Positions 15,571 through 32,909 of a DNA stretch of 35,088 nucleotides are shown here, in pieces. Under the pieces are notes generated by a model. The model saw nothing but the letters and a program-made list of their open reading frames with translations. It was not told where the DNA came from and searched no databases. Source of the DNA: Candidatus Woesearchaeota archaeon (lineage in GTDB: Archaea; Nanobdellota; Nanobdellia; Woesearchaeales; JABMPP01); the NCBI GenBank assembly GCA_018303405.1, contig JAGVYD010000006.1, forward strand, positions 1 through 35,088, given 5' to 3'. The translations under genes and the position numbers were made by a program. Each line of letters begins with the position of its first letter. Positions within the stretch are counted from its first letter, which is position 1.

Positions 15571-15644
15571 TGGACTGGCCGGGATTTGAACCCGGAGCCT
15601 CCCCATTGCCAACGGGGCGTTATGCCGGATTTAACTACCAGCCC
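15571..15644 (-). tRNA. tRNA-Ala (GGC)
   Basis: The minus strand folds as a full cloverleaf. Acceptor GGGCTGG pairs with CCAGTCC and includes the G3-T70 wobble that marks tRNA-Ala. The D stem is GTTA/TAAC, the anticodon stem CCCCG/TGGGG with loop TTGGCAA (anticodon GGC), and the T arm is CCGGG-TTCAAAT-CCCGG. The discriminator is A and CCA is not encoded. There is no intron. Two perfect inverted repeats lie just beyond its 5' end: GAGCTG-gcct-CAGCTC (15646-15661) and TGGGATT-N11-AATCCCA (15679-15703). Confidence 0.95.
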
Positions 15645-15783
15645 AGAGCTGGCCTCAGCTCGCACGGAATCGTATTAATGGGATTTCGCGCTGCTCAATC
15701 CCATAAACTCAATGCATCGCCGAAGCATCTCGTGAATGTAGCTTTAAGAATGCTTTATAAACTTATTCTTCATTTTTGAGTAT

Positions 15784-20473: not shown

Positions 20474-20583
20474 TTTTATAAGGACCATTTCTCTTAAGTC
20501 ATGAATTTACCAGGCCAAGTTGGCATGGAGTTTTGGGTATTGAGCAAGGCGAAATACCCGCAATACTAATCCGGGTGTCAGCT
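20474..20583 (+). promoter_or_regulatory. Promoter and 5' leader of tRNA-Met
   Basis: TTTTTATAAGG (20473-20483) should start transcription near 20501, giving an ~84-nt leader before the tRNA. The leader contains GGGTATT...AATACCC (20535-20541 and 20553-20559). The second arm extended, ATACCCGC (20554-20561), is a perfect complement of the tRNA 5' acceptor strand plus T8 (GCGGGTAT, 20584-20591). It can therefore compete with the acceptor stem. A 22-codon leaderless frame from 20501 is possible but has no other support. Confidence 0.4.
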
Positions 20584-20681
20584 GCGGGTATAACTCAGCT
20601 TGGTTAGAGTGTCGGTCTCATAAAATGAGATATTCATTTTGGGCAAGCCGAAAGTCCCGAGTTCAAATCTCGGTACCCGCA
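20584..20681 (+). tRNA. tRNA-Met-type (CAT) with a 23-nt intron
   Basis: Acceptor GCGGGTA/TACCCGC, D stem ACTC/GAGT, anticodon stem TCGGT/GCCGA, anticodon CAT, and T arm CCGAG-TTCAAAT-CTCGG give a full cloverleaf once 20623-20645 is removed. The intron lies at position 37/38. The splice sites form a textbook bulge-helix-bulge: central helix CTCA with TGGG, bulges TA|A and CA|A, and an intron hairpin AAATGA/TCATTT. CCA is not encoded. A CAT anticodon could also be the Ile2 tRNA modified at C34; elongator Met is more likely. Confidence 0.93.
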
Positions 20682-20750
20682 TAGCCTTTTAGGAAAAGGC
20701 TATCATCCAAAAATGTTTTTCCTCCGGAAAAACGATTTGCTACGCAAATC
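20681..20750 (+). repeat. Three-hairpin array A, directly after tRNA-Met
   Basis: Three perfect inverted repeats follow each other: ATAGCCTTTT-agg-AAAAGGCTAT (20681-20703), GTTTTTCC-tcc-GGAAAAAC (20715-20733) and GATTTGC-tac-GCAAATC (20734-20750). Each loop is three bases. A similar array with different stem sequences is at 26060-26132. The first hairpin starts on the discriminator base of the tRNA, so it may also mark the 3' end of the precursor. Confidence 0.6.
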
Positions 20751-26034: not shown

Positions 26035-26051
26035 GCCACGGTCGCACAATC
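26035..26051 (+). repeat. Duplicated 5' end of tRNA-Ser
   Basis: GCCACGGTCGCACAATC matches the first 17 bases of the tRNA-Ser gene at 26166-26182 with one mismatch, 131 bp upstream. No matching 3' half follows it; hairpins do. It is either a truncated gene copy or an attachment-like site. A third piece, ATATTGCCACGG, repeats 26161-26172 at 26456-26467. Confidence 0.55.
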
Positions 26052-26059
26052 AACGGCTG

Positions 26060-26132
26060 TCCTTTTCTCTAGAGAAAAGGATAGAACCCAAAAGAGTCGT
26101 GCATTCCATGCACGGGTTTTGCTTCGCAAAAC
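26060..26132 (+). repeat. Three-hairpin array B, between the tRNA-Ser fragment and tRNA-Ser
   Basis: A perfect 22-bp palindrome with CTAG at its centre (26060-26081) is followed by CGTGCAT-tcc-ATGCACG (26098-26114) and GTTTTGC-ttc-GCAAAAC (26116-26132). The order, the three-base loops, the close packing of hairpins two and three, and the CATT after the last stem match array A at 20681-20750, while stem sequences differ in a paired way. It starts right after the truncated tRNA-Ser 5' copy. Confidence 0.6.
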
Positions 26133-26165: not shown

Positions 26166-26365
26166 GCCACGGTCGCATAATCCGGTATTGCGTCGGTCTC
26201 GAAGAGCTGGCCTCACTGCACACAGATGCGGGATATTCCTTCGGAAATCCCGCAGTGCCCGCTATTTGTATTTTACAAGTCGCGAACGTGAATATGAAGT
26301 GAAGAATGCTGGTTAGAGCAAACCGATGCCGCAAGGCATTCCAGGTTCAAATCCTGGCCGTGGCG
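26166..26365 (+). tRNA. tRNA-Ser (CGA) with a 117-nt intron
   Basis: Acceptor GCCACGG (26166-26172) pairs with CCGTGGC (26358-26364). The D stem is short (GCA/TGC), the anticodon stem TCGGT/ACCGA and anticodon CGA. The variable arm TGCC-GCAA-GGCA marks a class II tRNA and the T arm is CCAGG-TTCAAAT-CCTGG. Discriminator G suits Ser. The intron is 26204-26320 at position 37/38. Its ends pair as AGCTGGC with GCTGGTT, giving a slightly relaxed bulge-helix-bulge. Inside are hairpins GCGGGAT...ATCCCGC (26228-26253) and TTGTA-ttt-TACAA (26266-26278). The mature tRNA would be 83 nt; CCA is not encoded. Confidence 0.88.
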
Positions 26366-26486
26366 TATTAATTATCATCTGTGAACTTTCATCTATGAAT
26401 GTTCAAAAATAAATCAAAATAAAGAAATAAAACCTGCAATATGCAAATGGTTCTGATATTGCCACGGAATTACAGGGTTGGTATCC

Positions 26487-26822: not shown

Positions 26823-29800
26823 TTATTTTATATAGCTGTCATTTGACTGATGTGCGTGGGATTCTGCCTGTTGTGCATGGTGCTCGGCGTGCCCTGGCTC
26901 GCCATGGTGTGCAAGTCCGCCCTGGCCCCCTCCCTTGTGCCAGTTCATGTAATAGATTATCCCGCCAACCACGGCAACAATTGCGAGGAGCAGCACCCAT
27001 GTCAATGCTCCGCCGCTCTTCTTTGCCCCTTCATCAGTGCCTGCTCCTGCAGTGTCCTGAGAAGCATCAGTGGATTCAGGCTGCGCATCCTGGGCTGTTG
27101 CGGCCTGCTGGCCTGAAGCAGCATCATCTGTTTGCTCTGACGTGACTTCCCCTGTGGGCAGAGTTGTGTCCTGCACAGCCGGAGGCTCCTCAGCCAAAGC
27201 CTTGACGCCGATTGCAAAATAGCTAAATCCAGGTGTTGCTGCAGAGTAGGTCAGGGTTTCCGCATCTGAGCCGATTTTCCTTGTTGGAAGCTCCTGCCAG
27301 GCATTTTCATCCCATCTCAGCAGCACGATTTGCGCTTCAGTGTAGCCATTTGCCGTCAGCCATGATTTTGTAATCTTGAACTCGACCTGGACATTGATGA
27401 GCGAGGAATCAACAAGGTTTGTTTTGATTATGGAAAGGTATTTGTATATTTTCGGGTATGATGAGGAAAGCAAATCACCGACGCTGCCTGGCTTTGTGTC
27501 AAGCGCGGTCAGGCTGATTTCAGCCTTTGTTGCTGTTGACAGGACTGTGAACAGGATTTTTGATGCCGGAACCAGTGAATTGCTGATTGAAAAAGTCATG
27601 CTTGAGCCCGCAGGGATTGTATCCCACTGCCTTGTGACTGTAGTGGTTTCGCCTCCTCCGCCACCACCTCCGCCTCCTCCGCCACCGCTGGAGCTGGATG
27701 AGCTGCTGGATGATGAGCTTGACGAAGAGCTGCTGGGCGCTGATGGCTCCCCTCCTGCCCAGACTGAAAACTCGCAGTATGGTATTTTCCAGATGCAGTA
27801 GTCTGAGCCAGTCTTGTTCAGCAATGCCTCAGCTGTCCTGTTGATGCAGGCTGTCTGGCTGTCACTGCAATGCCAGAGCTCAGAGCATGTCCCATCGCCC
27901 GGTATCTTGACATAGCATTGCTGAGGATGCAGGTTGTTGATGATCTTGTCGCGTGTTGATGTGAGCATTCCGACATACCCTATTGTCAGGCCTCCGGATG
28001 TGGTATTGGTTCCAGTGCCCAGGGCGCTGACATCGTCGATTTCCCTAATCTTGGAGCTTAAGCCGGTTTTTGTGAGTTGGGCATTGAAAAATTCAAAATA
28101 GCTTGTATTGTCATTTGTCCTTAATTTTATATTGGCCTTTCTGCCAGTGCTGTAATTTGTCTTCATCCCTGCATTTGGCCCGCAGACGCTGCCCTGCACA
28201 TGTTCGTAAGTTCCATCCTGGTCCAGGTCATAGCTGACATTCCAGGCCGACGGGACAACCAGCTTTGTCACAAAGTTGCAGAACGCACAGCTTGAGCCTG
28301 ATTCAGTTGTAAATGATGAGCACTTGCTTATTCCGCACTTTCCGGCATCGTCGCAAAACTCAAGCTTGAAATAATATTTGGTGTCTGAGTTTAGCGGGCT
28401 GGCCAATGAATGGACCCCGCCATCGTTGTATATTTCAGCCACGTGCCATAGCTTGTAATTCCTGACATCGTCGCTGTAAATGCCGGCGTCAAAAATAGAC
28501 GCGTTCAGGTTTCCGGAGCTGCAGGTTGAATCCTCGCCATAAAATTTCAGTGTTCCGTTGGCAGGCTTGTCCGTGAAGTAATTAACCAGTGCGCTGTCAG
28601 GATACATTTCCTTGCTAATGGCAATTATTTTGGGCGTCCTTGTGTCCTCGAAATCAGGGTCATGCACGCCAAATGAATTGGCTACGCAATATGGATGGTT
28701 GTAGCATGAATAATCGCCGCAGCCCCCTTCAGACCAGCAGTCTGCATCATATTCGACATATCCCTTGTTTGCATCATCCATGCCATAGTTATTTGAGCCA
28801 TTGGCTGTGTACATGAACAGGTCAAGCTTATCCAGGTCAAAGTCCACTGAGCCCTGTGTTGCAAAGCCAGGTGATGCAGTATCTGTTGGATTTGTGACAT
28901 TGCCAGAATTATTGGAAGTGGCGACATAGACCCTGAAGTCTACGCCTGTTGAGTATAGTGATGGATATTTTTCAAGGTCCACCTTGTCAATGGCAATCAT
29001 GCCGCCGTTAATTTCAGTGCACATCTTCTGCCTGAACCCTGACAGCTTGATTTCAGCTGCTGTGAAAGCACCGGCTGAGCACCTGTATGCATTGTATGAC
29101 TCGGACACTGAGCTTGTTTGCGAGTTGTAGGATGCCGTGTATTTTAGGTAAAATTCATATCCTGTTGCTGTTGAATTGTGCTGCAATGCGCAATTGTTTG
29201 TGCGATTCTCATCAGTATCAAGGTACCAGTAAAATTTGGTCGTGTTCTTTCCAGTGCCTGATGCCCCGCTCTGCAGTTTTATTCCGTTGCACATGGCGGC
29301 ATTTGTCACGTCGACGACGCGGGTGCCAAAGCCAAATGCATTTCCCATGTCCTTGAGGCCAAAGCCAACTATGTCAACCTCGTCAGGCCCGGCATCTCCA
29401 GGCGCATCCATTCCCAGCGGGACAGGCTCCCCGCCTTCCATATTCTTGAAGAACTGGGCAGTCATCGCTGACTCACACCATCCGGATACCCACACACAGC
29501 CGCTGACATTCAACGAGGAGTTAACGCTTACATTGATTCCGCCACAGGTCTCTTGTGTAACACTGGGGCCAAAGCAAGCCGGCTGGCACCCTCCGAATTG
29601 TGGGTCCCACCTGCAGTGCGGTGTTGCATTGCAAAGCGTCTCATTTGTTGAAAGAGTGAAATTGGAAAAGCATTCAAAAATTTTCCGGCCGCAGAATCCC
29701 TGTCCTGGCATTCCGCTTGGATTTTCCCAGGTGCAAAGCGGGTTTTGCAGGCATATTGTCTGGTTGTAGCTGAACTGCGGGCAATTATTGCTGTTGTCGC

Positions 29801-32800
29801 CGTCGCAGAATCCACTGCTCTCCTGGAAATAAGTGCAGCCCGCATTGCTCTCGCAGGCAGACTGATTCCCATTGAATTTGAAGCATGTAAAGCCACTTCC
29901 TGACGCTGCATTGCCTTCGCCAAATCCTCCCCCCTCGCCGCCAAAGCCGCTGATAAAGTCAGACCCGAAGCCAGGCGGGTCGCAGAGCCCTGATACCCAG
30001 CTGCATCCGGATGCTGTGCAGCCTGACTCATTATACTTGTTGAAGCATGAATTTTCCCCGGATTGTATGCCCTCACAGAAGCCGCCCCATTCATTTTGGT
30101 TCCACTGGCACCACAGGGAATTTGTGCCGTTTGTGCAGGTAGTCTGGTTTGAGTATTGCCAGCATGAAAATTTCATATGGTCACACCAGCCTGCATTATC
30201 GCCCTGGCCTGCGCACCACTGGTCTTCCTGCCACCTGCAGGCCGCATGGGCGTCACAGGCAGCTGAAGTGCTCTTGTCTGGATAATTGTTCCAGCAGTCC
30301 ACCCAGTTTCCAGAATAGGATGGGTCAGTTTCGCACCATCCCCCTTTTTCCTGGCAGAATTTGTCGACATTCCATGTGCAATTTCCTGAGCATGATGTTG
30401 AGTTCATCCCAAGGCAGGCATCGAATTCCTCTGATTCCCAGTCATCCTCGCAGAATCCCCCGCCGCCTGAGTGCCATTCGCAGCCCTCTCCAGTGCATGT
30501 GGATTCATTCGTGCCATCCAGCTTCCAGCAATTTGCCCCTGGCACATCGCACCAGCTACCCCAGTTTTCGCTGACCCATGAGCAATTGGCTGATGTGCAT
30601 GATGCATTATCAGAGTATCCGAAACAGTTTTGGTTGCCCCCTCCAATGAATCCTCCGCCGCAGAATGGATCAGAGAAGCACATTGAGTCTGCGCAGTCTA
30701 TCTTGTTGTCATTATTATTGTCTATCCCATCCCAGCATAACTCATATTCACCGGCCCCGCTTTTTGGCTTGCAGATTTTTGAGGCTGAATCCCAGGAGCA
30801 TTGGGCGTCCAGGTTTGTATCGCCTTTCTTGGCGCCATAAGTTGTGCAAATTCCCTCATCATAGCACTGGTCACACTTGTCCTCGCATGATTTTTCCGCA
30901 GTTGGGGCGCATCGACCCTTGGATTCATCTGTTGGCGAGACAAGGTCAGGAACCCATTTGCAGCCTTTTTTGCTGTTCTTGCAATAATACGATGGGCGCT
31001 TGGATGAGTCCGAAGCAGTGGGATCACCCATGAATGTGCATGAGCCGCAGTCAGTTTCGCATGTCCCGGACGCAATGCCTTTCTTGAACTCTTCCCTCAC
31101 TGTGCAGGAGCCGTAAGTGTTGGGCGCTGATAAGTCCTCGGTGAAGCTGCAAAATCCGAGCTTTGAGCCAATGCATGCATCCCTCGCATCGCTCAGGCTT
31201 GACCAGTTTGTCCGGTCGCTCTGGAAGTCGCATGCATAGCAAGCCTTGTTGCAGTTTGTTTCCTCGTCAAACTTGAATTCACACCTGCCCGTCGGGACTG
31301 CAACGCTGCCTTCGCAATAGCTTTCAGTGACCCATTTTCCGCTGGCAAACTCGCAGTTCTGCTTGTTGTCAATGAACATGAGATTTTGCTTGCCTTCTGA
31401 AAAGATGTTGTCAAACTTGACTTCACAGCGGGTTGTCACATTATTCCAGCGGCATGGCATGTACCACGGCGCGCCTGAAATCTGGCTGCACAGAGTCTGG
31501 TCAGTGTAGCTGTTGTAATCCTCACAAAATTCTGCCCCCTCGGGAAGCTCATCAATGTCATTGAAGCATGATTGGCTGAATTTATCTGAGGTGCAGCTTG
31601 ATCCCTGCCACTTGCAGCATGTGCTAAAAGCGGCAATATCATTGCAGAGGGTGGATTGGTTAATCCGGTCGCAGCTCAGCTGGCCAGTTGGGATAAGGGT
31701 ATTATTTGTCATGCACGAGTTCCCGGTCCAGTAGCAGCCTGAAGTGTTTGTGCAGCTGCTTTCATTCGAGTCAAAGATATAGCAGCCTGGATTCCATTCA
31801 ACAAAATCGCTTACATAACCGCCGGCCGGCTCCTGGCAGGTTGAGCTGCTGAAATTCCAAAGGCAATAGAATGTGTCAGCGCAGTCCTTTGTTGTTGTCA
31901 GGTCGCCGCATGACTTGGCGCTTACATTTTCATAGCACCATCCGCCATTATTTTCCCAGACGCAGGAAATATTTGCAGTATTGTTTACACATGCGCTTTC
32001 ATTTGCATTTCCGGAAAGTGACATGTTGTCATAATTCCAGCAGCCTGCTTCCTGGCACCAGCCGCCGCTTGATGAGAACCATGAGCATGATGAATCGCCG
32101 TTGCAATTGTTTTCATTGTTATAGTTATAGCATCCTTTTTGGTTGCAGAATACCCCATCCCAGCTGCAGCTAAGGTTTGCAGTATTGTTGACGCAGGCTG
32201 ACGCATTCTTGTAGCTGAAGTCAGAGCACCACTTGTTTGAGCAATAGCCGCTGCTCCATGTGCATGCGCCTCCGAGGCCGGAGTTGCAGCCACTAAGATT
32301 TGTGAAATCTGCGCAATTGCTTTCATAGCAATAGCTGTATTGCGTATTCCATTTGCATGCGCGGTTATTCTGGCCCTGGGCTGCCGTGCATGTGGCTGAG
32401 GTTGTTTGGCTGCCGCAGTCCATTGGCGCGCATTGGCCCCAGTTGCAGCCCGCAACGGCCTGGCAGCTCGACTGGTCTGCAAAATTATAGCATTGCTTTT
32501 CCGGCGGCCCCTCGCACCTGTTTCTCCACTCGCATGACTTGCCGATTGAATTGTTCTCGCATGTTGAGGCATTTGAAGCGGACAGGCTCCAGCAATTTTT
32601 TTGGTCGCACCAGCCCGATGCACTGCTCTGCCAGGAGCAAGACTTGCTTATTGAATTGGTGCTGTTTTGGCACGCAGTCTGTGTAAAGAAATTCCAGCAT
32701 CCGAGAGGCGAGCACCATGTTCCCCAGCCGTCGCTGTTCCACTGGCAATCGCCCTGCGATTCGCATCCGGATTCGTCATGGTCATAGAGATAGCAATTGC

Positions 32801-32909
32801 TGGCATCTGATGATTGGCCTGATATAATTGCCAGCATCGCTATGAGCATGGCAAAGAAAACAGTCCTGACCGCGTACGAAAGGCCTCTTTTTGTCCCGTT
32901 ATCCTTCAT
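26823..32909 (-). CDS. Giant Cys-rich surface protein with PGF-pre-PGF-like domain (2028 aa)
   Basis: A signal peptide (~10-35, VFFAMLIAMLAIISGQSSDA) leads into ~1100 residues of Cys repeats. The unit is ~25-40 residues with four Cys and a CxW signature (e.g. CYNYNNENNC, then SSCSWFSSSGGWC). There are about 40 Cys in the first ~360 residues, and many N-x-S/T sites. A DGIDNNNDNKIDC calcium-type motif occurs near the middle. Beta-rich domains follow (~1150-1700), then an S16-G12 linker (1726-1753), a PGF-pre-PGF-like domain (IPAGSSMTFSIS to TPGFSYFAIGV), an acidic Thr/Ala/Gln stretch, a TM helix (~1966-1988) and a 40-residue tail with eight His. Single-pass anchor, outside domain. Structural, adhesive or protective envelope role is inferred. 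Folding would need a disulfide system. Confidence 0.9.
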   Translation of the reverse strand: MKDNGTKRGLSYAVRTVFFAMLIAMLAIISGQSSDASNCYLYDHDESGCESQGDCQWNSDGWGTWCSPLGCWNFFTQTACQNSTNSISKSCSWQSSASGWCDQKNCWSLSASNASTCENNSIGKSCEWRNRCEGPPEKQCYNFADQSSCQAVAGCNWGQCAPMDCGSQTTSATCTAAQGQNNRACKWNTQYSYCYESNCADFTNLSGCNSGLGGACTWSSGYCSNKWCSDFSYKNASACVNNTANLSCSWDGVFCNQKGCYNYNNENNCNGDSSCSWFSSSGGWCQEAGCWNYDNMSLSGNANESACVNNTANISCVWENNGGWCYENVSAKSCGDLTTTKDCADTFYCLWNFSSSTCQEPAGGYVSDFVEWNPGCYIFDSNESSCTNTSGCYWTGNSCMTNNTLIPTGQLSCDRINQSTLCNDIAAFSTCCKWQGSSCTSDKFSQSCFNDIDELPEGAEFCEDYNSYTDQTLCSQISGAPWYMPCRWNNVTTRCEVKFDNIFSEGKQNLMFIDNKQNCEFASGKWVTESYCEGSVAVPTGRCEFKFDEETNCNKACYACDFQSDRTNWSSLSDARDACIGSKLGFCSFTEDLSAPNTYGSCTVREEFKKGIASGTCETDCGSCTFMGDPTASDSSKRPSYYCKNSKKGCKWVPDLVSPTDESKGRCAPTAEKSCEDKCDQCYDEGICTTYGAKKGDTNLDAQCSWDSASKICKPKSGAGEYELCWDGIDNNNDNKIDCADSMCFSDPFCGGGFIGGGNQNCFGYSDNASCTSANCSWVSENWGSWCDVPGANCWKLDGTNESTCTGEGCEWHSGGGGFCEDDWESEEFDACLGMNSTSCSGNCTWNVDKFCQEKGGWCETDPSYSGNWVDCWNNYPDKSTSAACDAHAACRWQEDQWCAGQGDNAGWCDHMKFSCWQYSNQTTCTNGTNSLWCQWNQNEWGGFCEGIQSGENSCFNKYNESGCTASGCSWVSGLCDPPGFGSDFISGFGGEGGGFGEGNAASGSGFTCFKFNGNQSACESNAGCTYFQESSGFCDGDNSNNCPQFSYNQTICLQNPLCTWENPSGMPGQGFCGRKIFECFSNFTLSTNETLCNATPHCRWDPQFGGCQPACFGPSVTQETCGGINVSVNSSLNVSGCVWVSGWCESAMTAQFFKNMEGGEPVPLGMDAPGDAGPDEVDIVGFGLKDMGNAFGFGTRVVDVTNAAMCNGIKLQSGASGTGKNTTKFYWYLDTDENRTNNCALQHNSTATGYEFYLKYTASYNSQTSSVSESYNAYRCSAGAFTAAEIKLSGFRQKMCTEINGGMIAIDKVDLEKYPSLYSTGVDFRVYVATSNNSGNVTNPTDTASPGFATQGSVDFDLDKLDLFMYTANGSNNYGMDDANKGYVEYDADCWSEGGCGDYSCYNHPYCVANSFGVHDPDFEDTRTPKIIAISKEMYPDSALVNYFTDKPANGTLKFYGEDSTCSSGNLNASIFDAGIYSDDVRNYKLWHVAEIYNDGGVHSLASPLNSDTKYYFKLEFCDDAGKCGISKCSSFTTESGSSCAFCNFVTKLVVPSAWNVSYDLDQDGTYEHVQGSVCGPNAGMKTNYSTGRKANIKLRTNDNTSYFEFFNAQLTKTGLSSKIREIDDVSALGTGTNTTSGGLTIGYVGMLTSTRDKIINNLHPQQCYVKIPGDGTCSELWHCSDSQTACINRTAEALLNKTGSDYCIWKIPYCEFSVWAGGEPSAPSSSSSSSSSSSSSSSSGGGGGGGGGGGGETTTVTRQWDTIPAGSSMTFSISNSLVPASKILFTVLSTATKAEISLTALDTKPGSVGDLLSSSYPKIYKYLSIIKTNLVDSSLINVQVEFKITKSWLTANGYTEAQIVLLRWDENAWQELPTRKIGSDAETLTYSAATPGFSYFAIGVKALAEEPPAVQDTTLPTGEVTSEQTDDAASGQQAATAQDAQPESTDASQDTAGAGTDEGAKKSGGALTWVLLLAIVAVVGGIIYYMNWHKGGGQGGLAHHGEPGHAEHHAQQAESHAHQSNDSYIK

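Follow-up and report, generated by a model that had tools for sequence, protein, structure and literature searches.

What are the two triple-hairpin arrays that stand beside tRNA genes in the stretch of DNA analysed here (the window: 35,088 nucleotides, contig C6 of a 1.6 Mb Woesearchaeales draft genome in 23 contigs), and why should one architecture occur at two different genes with different letters in its stems? As had been claimed from the sequence alone, both neighbours are intron-bearing tRNA genes, for Met(CAT) and Ser(CGA); a default ARAGORN run missed both, and an intron-aware run found and misnamed them. Our answer is that each array very probably belongs to a family of small, non-autonomous mobile elements of the Woesearchaeales, here called family T. 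The features concerned are collected in Table 1.

Table 1. Hairpin elements, their target genes and target duplicates in the window
Feature	Position	Strand	Details	Basis
T element copy 1	20681-20750	+	stem1 20681-20703, linker 20704-20714, stem2 20715-20733, stem3 20734-20750	fold, CM R1 85 bits
T element copy 2	26057-26132	+	stem1 26057-26084, linker 26085-26096, stem2 26097-26115, stem3 26116-26132	fold, CM R1
tRNA-Met(CAT) with intron	20584-20681	+	target of copy 1	Rfam RF00005 56.9 bits
tRNA-Ser(CGA), intron ~115 nt	26166-26366	+	target of copy 2	read by eye; intron-aware ARAGORN
M2-family element at tRNA-Met 5' end	20523-20583	-	stem1 first on minus strand	nhmmer E 3.6e-7
M4/M2 hybrid abutting tRNA-Ala 5' end	15646-15711	+	M4 stem1 + M2 stem2	CM R2 36 bits
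Left target duplicate of copy 2	26035-26051	+	GCCACGGTCGCACAATC, copies first 17 nt of tRNA-Ser	16/17 identical
Right target duplicate of copy 2	26166-26182	+	GCCACGGTCGCATAATC	5' end of intact tRNA-Ser gene
Decayed M4-family element in tRNA-Ser intron	26204-26258	+		CM R2 28 bits, E 4.5e-5

Copy 1 consists of perfect stems of 10, 8 and 7 bp with 3-nt loops and an 11-nt linker between stem1 and stem2, and its stem1 abuts the 3' end of tRNA-Met. Folding against shuffles bore out the three perfect stems of the original prediction (z = -6.9 as DNA and -4.9 as RNA, with 0 shuffles equally good), and a comparable triple array appeared in 0 of 200 first-order simulated windows. Copy 2 (RNA z = -5.1) equals copy 1 in order, linker and spacing and differs from it in stem letters. 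The earlier description of this second array, as a match at 26060-26132, holds for order and spacing but needs amending in its start (26057) and in stem1, whose loop is 4 nt long and whose pairs include one wobble. Covariance model R1, from the building of which copy 2 was left out, scores it at 41.6 bits (E 1.2e-6). At gathering score, Rfam 15 recognised only tRNA in the window, and only tRNA and rRNA in seven element-bearing loci.

The arrays belong to a larger set of related hairpin units. Covariance models find 11 copies of T in the window's own genome, together with 15 of a family M4 and 16 of a family K, while a fourth type, M2, gave 18 nhmmer matches in the genome stretches examined; several other hairpin modules recur together with array 1. 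By our reading all families share one build, with stem1 at the gene edge, then a family-specific linker (RYCCAAARA in T, GTAAAAACAA in K, GCACGGAAG in M4), then stem2, followed in T and K by another hairpin. Family T is about 70-100 bp long and has no ORF; across families the inserts measure 60-235 bp and hold no genes. Hybrid units are also seen: one in locus L126 sets stem1 and linker of T on stem2 of M4, and another stands in the window at the 5' end of a tRNA-Ala gene (15571-15644, minus strand). Two copies 83-84% identical to copy 1 lie in its own genome at C2:47847 and C2:48189, by tRNA-Glu. This tRNA-Glu locus (L004:1500-2227, C2:47707-48434) contains nested insertions: the tRNA 5' end occurs three times, with T, K, M4, K, T and M2 modules in between. 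Larger multi-hairpin elements of about 250 bp, holding a K unit, occur in other genomes (L217-L223 and L231-L235, in G237, G207, G226 and G265); the outer stem that closes them varies in its letters between copies and keeps its complementarity.

The compensatory change first noticed between the two window arrays extends through the family, with further copies found and 95.7% of cells paired over 29 related copies. In these 29 copies, drawn from many genomes, two-sided changes affect 22 of 24 pairs, compared with 14.6 in shuffles and 7-14 in slid controls, counts that lean toward structure since the alignment was fitted to the model. That model was made from five well-aligned copies, through which the remaining copies were aligned; a MAFFT alignment of all copies misplaced the stems. 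The pairing record of the hairpins contains 28 G.T and 18 A.C, where acceptor stems of tRNAs have 8 and 0 (Fisher p = 0.04). This lack of strand bias, itself weak, points to evolution of the hairpins as DNA, in which case palindrome-templated mutation could generate covariation in them without selection.

Copies gather at the edges of genes. A tRNA gene lies within 300 bp of 29 of the 42 T, M4 and K copies, where 1.8% would be expected, and of 16 of 26 once neighbouring copies are clustered into loci. Other copies stand at protein genes, where they either follow the final codons of an ORF (C17:2680, C13:47292, C2:30826) or precede its initial ones (C16:28821, C14:9998). In marine and groundwater Woesearchaeota (L113-L118, L120, L121) a T array on the reverse strand abuts start codons, with AAAGG of stem1 just before the ATG, of genes that we read by eye, from translated ORFs and without profile search, as those of ribosomal proteins L2, L3 and L40e, SecG and MCM. 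These start-codon copies show no visible target duplicate, and may have been domesticated as translation leaders. Two different epimerase-like genes (L123 and L135, in G243) carry an M4 copy at the same point within the GGAGFIG motif near their N-terminus, a hint of some preference for target sequence.

Direct repeats bracket 19 of the 42 T, M4 and K copies, against a random mean of 0.6 and a maximum of 4 in 2000 trials, although a few of the 19 may lie between neighbouring elements rather than represent target duplicates (for example at C8 and C15:35331). At 5' insertions the repeat takes in 15-22 nt from the start of the tRNA, in some cases plus a few upstream bases, and at 3' insertions it spans the T-loop to the end of the tRNA (C15:34705); at protein genes it is either perfect, over 29, 37 and 48 bp at C-termini, or 40-41 bp long with mismatches, and one of 41 bp lies at an N-terminus. 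Other families of the order show the same pattern: 21 bp, exact, at tRNA-Asn (L134), 43 bp at tRNA-Thr (L132), 28 bp, exact (L125), 39 bp at the start of the epimerase-like gene in L123, 64 bp at tRNA-Val, partly a neighbouring element (L131), and three nested insertions that each repeat GCCTCTGTAGCATA (L129). Overall the duplicates range from 15 to 64 bp. Since the repeats around any one family change from site to site, they are part of the target and not of the element. An empty site is available in one case, among draft genomes throughout and for a K copy rather than a T copy: at tRNA-Arg of G206 an 84-bp K element lies between two 32-bp repeats, where its congener G207, collinear over kilobases at 90-95% identity, has no insert and a single 32-bp copy. 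Within this stretch G207 also has 326 bp that are missing from G206, a block that includes a larger hairpin element bearing K. These comparisons establish insertion with target duplication for K and strongly imply it for T and M4. Both window copies are old: the one at tRNA-Ser keeps its duplicate, and at tRNA-Met no second tRNA fragment was found near the array with up to three mismatches allowed, so that insertion is deduced there from family membership and exact abutment to the tRNA end.

How such an insertion might proceed can be outlined from the shape of the products. A putative machinery, acting in trans, would make cuts 15-64 bp apart in the two strands of the target at the edge of a gene, be it the 5' or 3' end of a tRNA gene or the region of a start or stop codon; the hairpin element would be joined with stem1 at one border, the other sometimes receiving a short AT-rich filler, and gap filling would then duplicate the target. 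As the edge of the gene falls within the duplicate, one intact gene copy would stay and the insertion would be tolerated, with tRNAs and essential genes unharmed; such tolerance is the likely cause of the bias towards edges. The tyrosine-integrase-family gene next to array 1 (PF00589; 20797-21675, minus strand) was rejected as the mobiliser, being nearly unique to the window genome, with one other match, a weak one, in 19 relatives; it may belong to an element integrated at tRNA-Met.

Mobility of the arrays thus draws on the repeated family, the covariation of its hairpins, the target duplicates, the gene-edge sites and the one K empty site, and the general attributes of a small non-autonomous mobile element were all found (dispersed copies, insertion polymorphism in K, target duplication). 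Against it count the absence of a duplicate at copy 1, of a T empty site and of duplicates at the start-codon T copies, and the highly variable repeat lengths, which would be unusual for a transposase. The earlier suggestion of a mobile-element end is supported as to mobility; the array is, however, nearly or entirely the whole of a small element, and recurs far from tRNAs. An immobile alternative, in which the arrays are functional RNA elements (tRNA leaders or trailers, mRNA leaders) under selection on the folded RNA, would account for the strong fold and covariation and for the start-codon copies with their AAAGG, and we nevertheless judge it improbable: the same arrays lie behind stop codons, on both sides of tRNAs and inside a tRNA T-arm, target duplications and an empty site accompany them, and the pairing record is not strongly asymmetric, unlike that of tRNA stems. 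The tRNA processing signal proposed at the outset is likewise disfavoured, by the copies behind protein stop codons and by the majority of tRNAs, which have no array.

It is very unlikely that the arrays are relics (attL/attR) left by large plasmids or viruses that target tRNAs with tyrosine integrases of the SSV or pNOB8 kind, the repeats being attachment cores and the hairpins left-over att arms. Integrated elements of this sort do leave direct repeats of tRNA 5' or 3' ends (PMC3293823), and an integrase gene stands beside array 1, with others downstream of other tRNAs by eye. Yet the repeat around a single hairpin family is one sequence at tRNA-Ser, another at tRNA-Thr and others again at two protein genes, the inserts are small and gene-free, the K empty site is clean and the integrase is all but confined to this genome; the repeat is neither a core carried by the element nor fixed to one target, and its diversity disfavours an att-core origin.

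If the arrays are mobile elements, SINE-like insertion by target-primed reverse transcription is one conceivable route, which we regard as possible but rather doubtful. It would suit duplicates that are long and variable and elements with one constant and one variable end, and among genomes with M4, 5 of 6 carry reverse transcriptase (RT) genes (p = 0.006), as do 7 of 9 high-copy genomes (p = 0.002), over a background of 27%, although these statistics are post hoc, ignore phylogeny and genome size, and make co-occurrence a weak lead. RT is not enriched in genomes with T (6/12) or K (10/34), the RTs are group II- or DGR-like and below the curated cut-off (the DGR likeness is our own reading), and the pairing record does not look RNA-specific. 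None of the RT genes examined has an adjoining element, and the idea that the elements are ends of RT-carrying elements was rejected. We therefore lean, short of proof, towards a DNA-hairpin or other route over an RNA intermediate. Separately, two related RT genes of the window genome are broken at contig ends (L177, C3:8-628; L182, C2:59880-60497), possibly marking repeated retroelements lost in assembly.

Comparison with known systems gives partial likenesses. The subterminal hairpins, strict architecture and possible single-strand substrate recall IS200/IS605 and REP/RAYT elements, a class not known to duplicate its target; here duplicates are present, and Y1 transposase is absent from four element-rich genomes (G242, G243, G237, G206), Y1_Tnp being present in G000, G207 and G118. 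Stand-alone T and M4 copies lack terminal inverted repeats on inspection and their duplicates, at 15-64 bp, are not of fixed length, which sets them apart from MITEs of DDE transposons; judged on length alone, the same range also differs from the constant ~14-15 bp of casposon/Cas1 insertion. Target duplication is not expected of integron attC insertion. Rickettsia palindromic elements, hairpin repeats of about 100-150 bp noted for in-frame insertion inside coding genes, are similar in being small and lying in and around genes of small genomes, and we know of no 15-64 bp target duplicates in them. Nor, to our knowledge, does any archaeal transposition mechanism match long, variable duplications around a non-coding element of 60-100 bp; hence insertion may depend on a machinery not yet recognised. 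Mobile GC clusters and double-hairpin elements of fungal mitochondria are likewise tiny, palindromic and modular, merging and shuffling, and Neurospora mitochondria are cited as having palindromes that flank tRNA genes, but the flanking duplicates of the clusters are AG or ACT (PMC4478555). A tRNA-Thr gene of Caldiarchaeum offers an archaeal parallel, having a 1.8 kb insert with a putative recombinase, a tRNA 5' fragment upstream of the intact tRNA that forms a direct repeat around the insertion, and an intron gain tied to the mobile element (Sugahara et al. 2012, PMC3293823); unlike it, the units described here are gene-free and of hairpin build, comprise many families and also occupy protein genes.

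This parallel bears on the supposed link between the arrays and the introns beside them, which stands in part: the tRNA-Ser intron, which lies in the anticodon loop, does hold a decayed copy, but of the sister family M4 rather than of T. Its local alignment score of 42 exceeds the maximum of 29 in 2000 shuffles and of 21 elsewhere in the window. In G118 and G121, too, a tRNA has a T element within its T-arm (read by eye). From these two cases, suggestive rather than conclusive, some tRNA introns may have arisen from the elements, much as was proposed for Caldiarchaeum (PMC3293823), and decayed copies inside introns would make the origin of archaeal tRNA introns directly testable by strain comparison. 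The elements also account for scattered fragments of tRNAs, and could mislead the annotation of tRNAs in DPANN genomes. Taken at its broadest, and as a tentative proposal that could well fail, the set would be a new class of archaeal mobile element, built of modular hairpin units that recombine between families, inserted at gene edges with 15-64 bp duplications by a putative RT- or hairpin-DNA-based enzyme, and repeatedly seeding tRNA introns.

The literature yielded no description of such elements in archaea, including DPANN. No viral contig matched the exact patterns scanned for M2, M4, T, the short T form or the conserved core, and no GTDB genome matched that for M2. GTDB genomes contain the conserved core CTTTACAAAGNNTNNNATCCAAAGA at ten loci, each labelled as a Woesearchaeota, Nanoarchaeota or 'archaeon' MAG, and from these labels we infer that the host range is the order Woesearchaeales. 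Covariance-model searches of 353 genomes of the order (E <= 1e-3) found T in 12, M4 in 6 and K in 34, the weak K matches perhaps including unrelated hairpins. All three families also occur in other families of the order, and the relatives compared all come from outside the window's own. Beyond the second array, the window encodes on its minus strand (26823-32909) a Cys-rich protein of 2028 aa with many repeated Cys/Trp motifs and a hydrophobic C-terminal segment, probably a surface protein.
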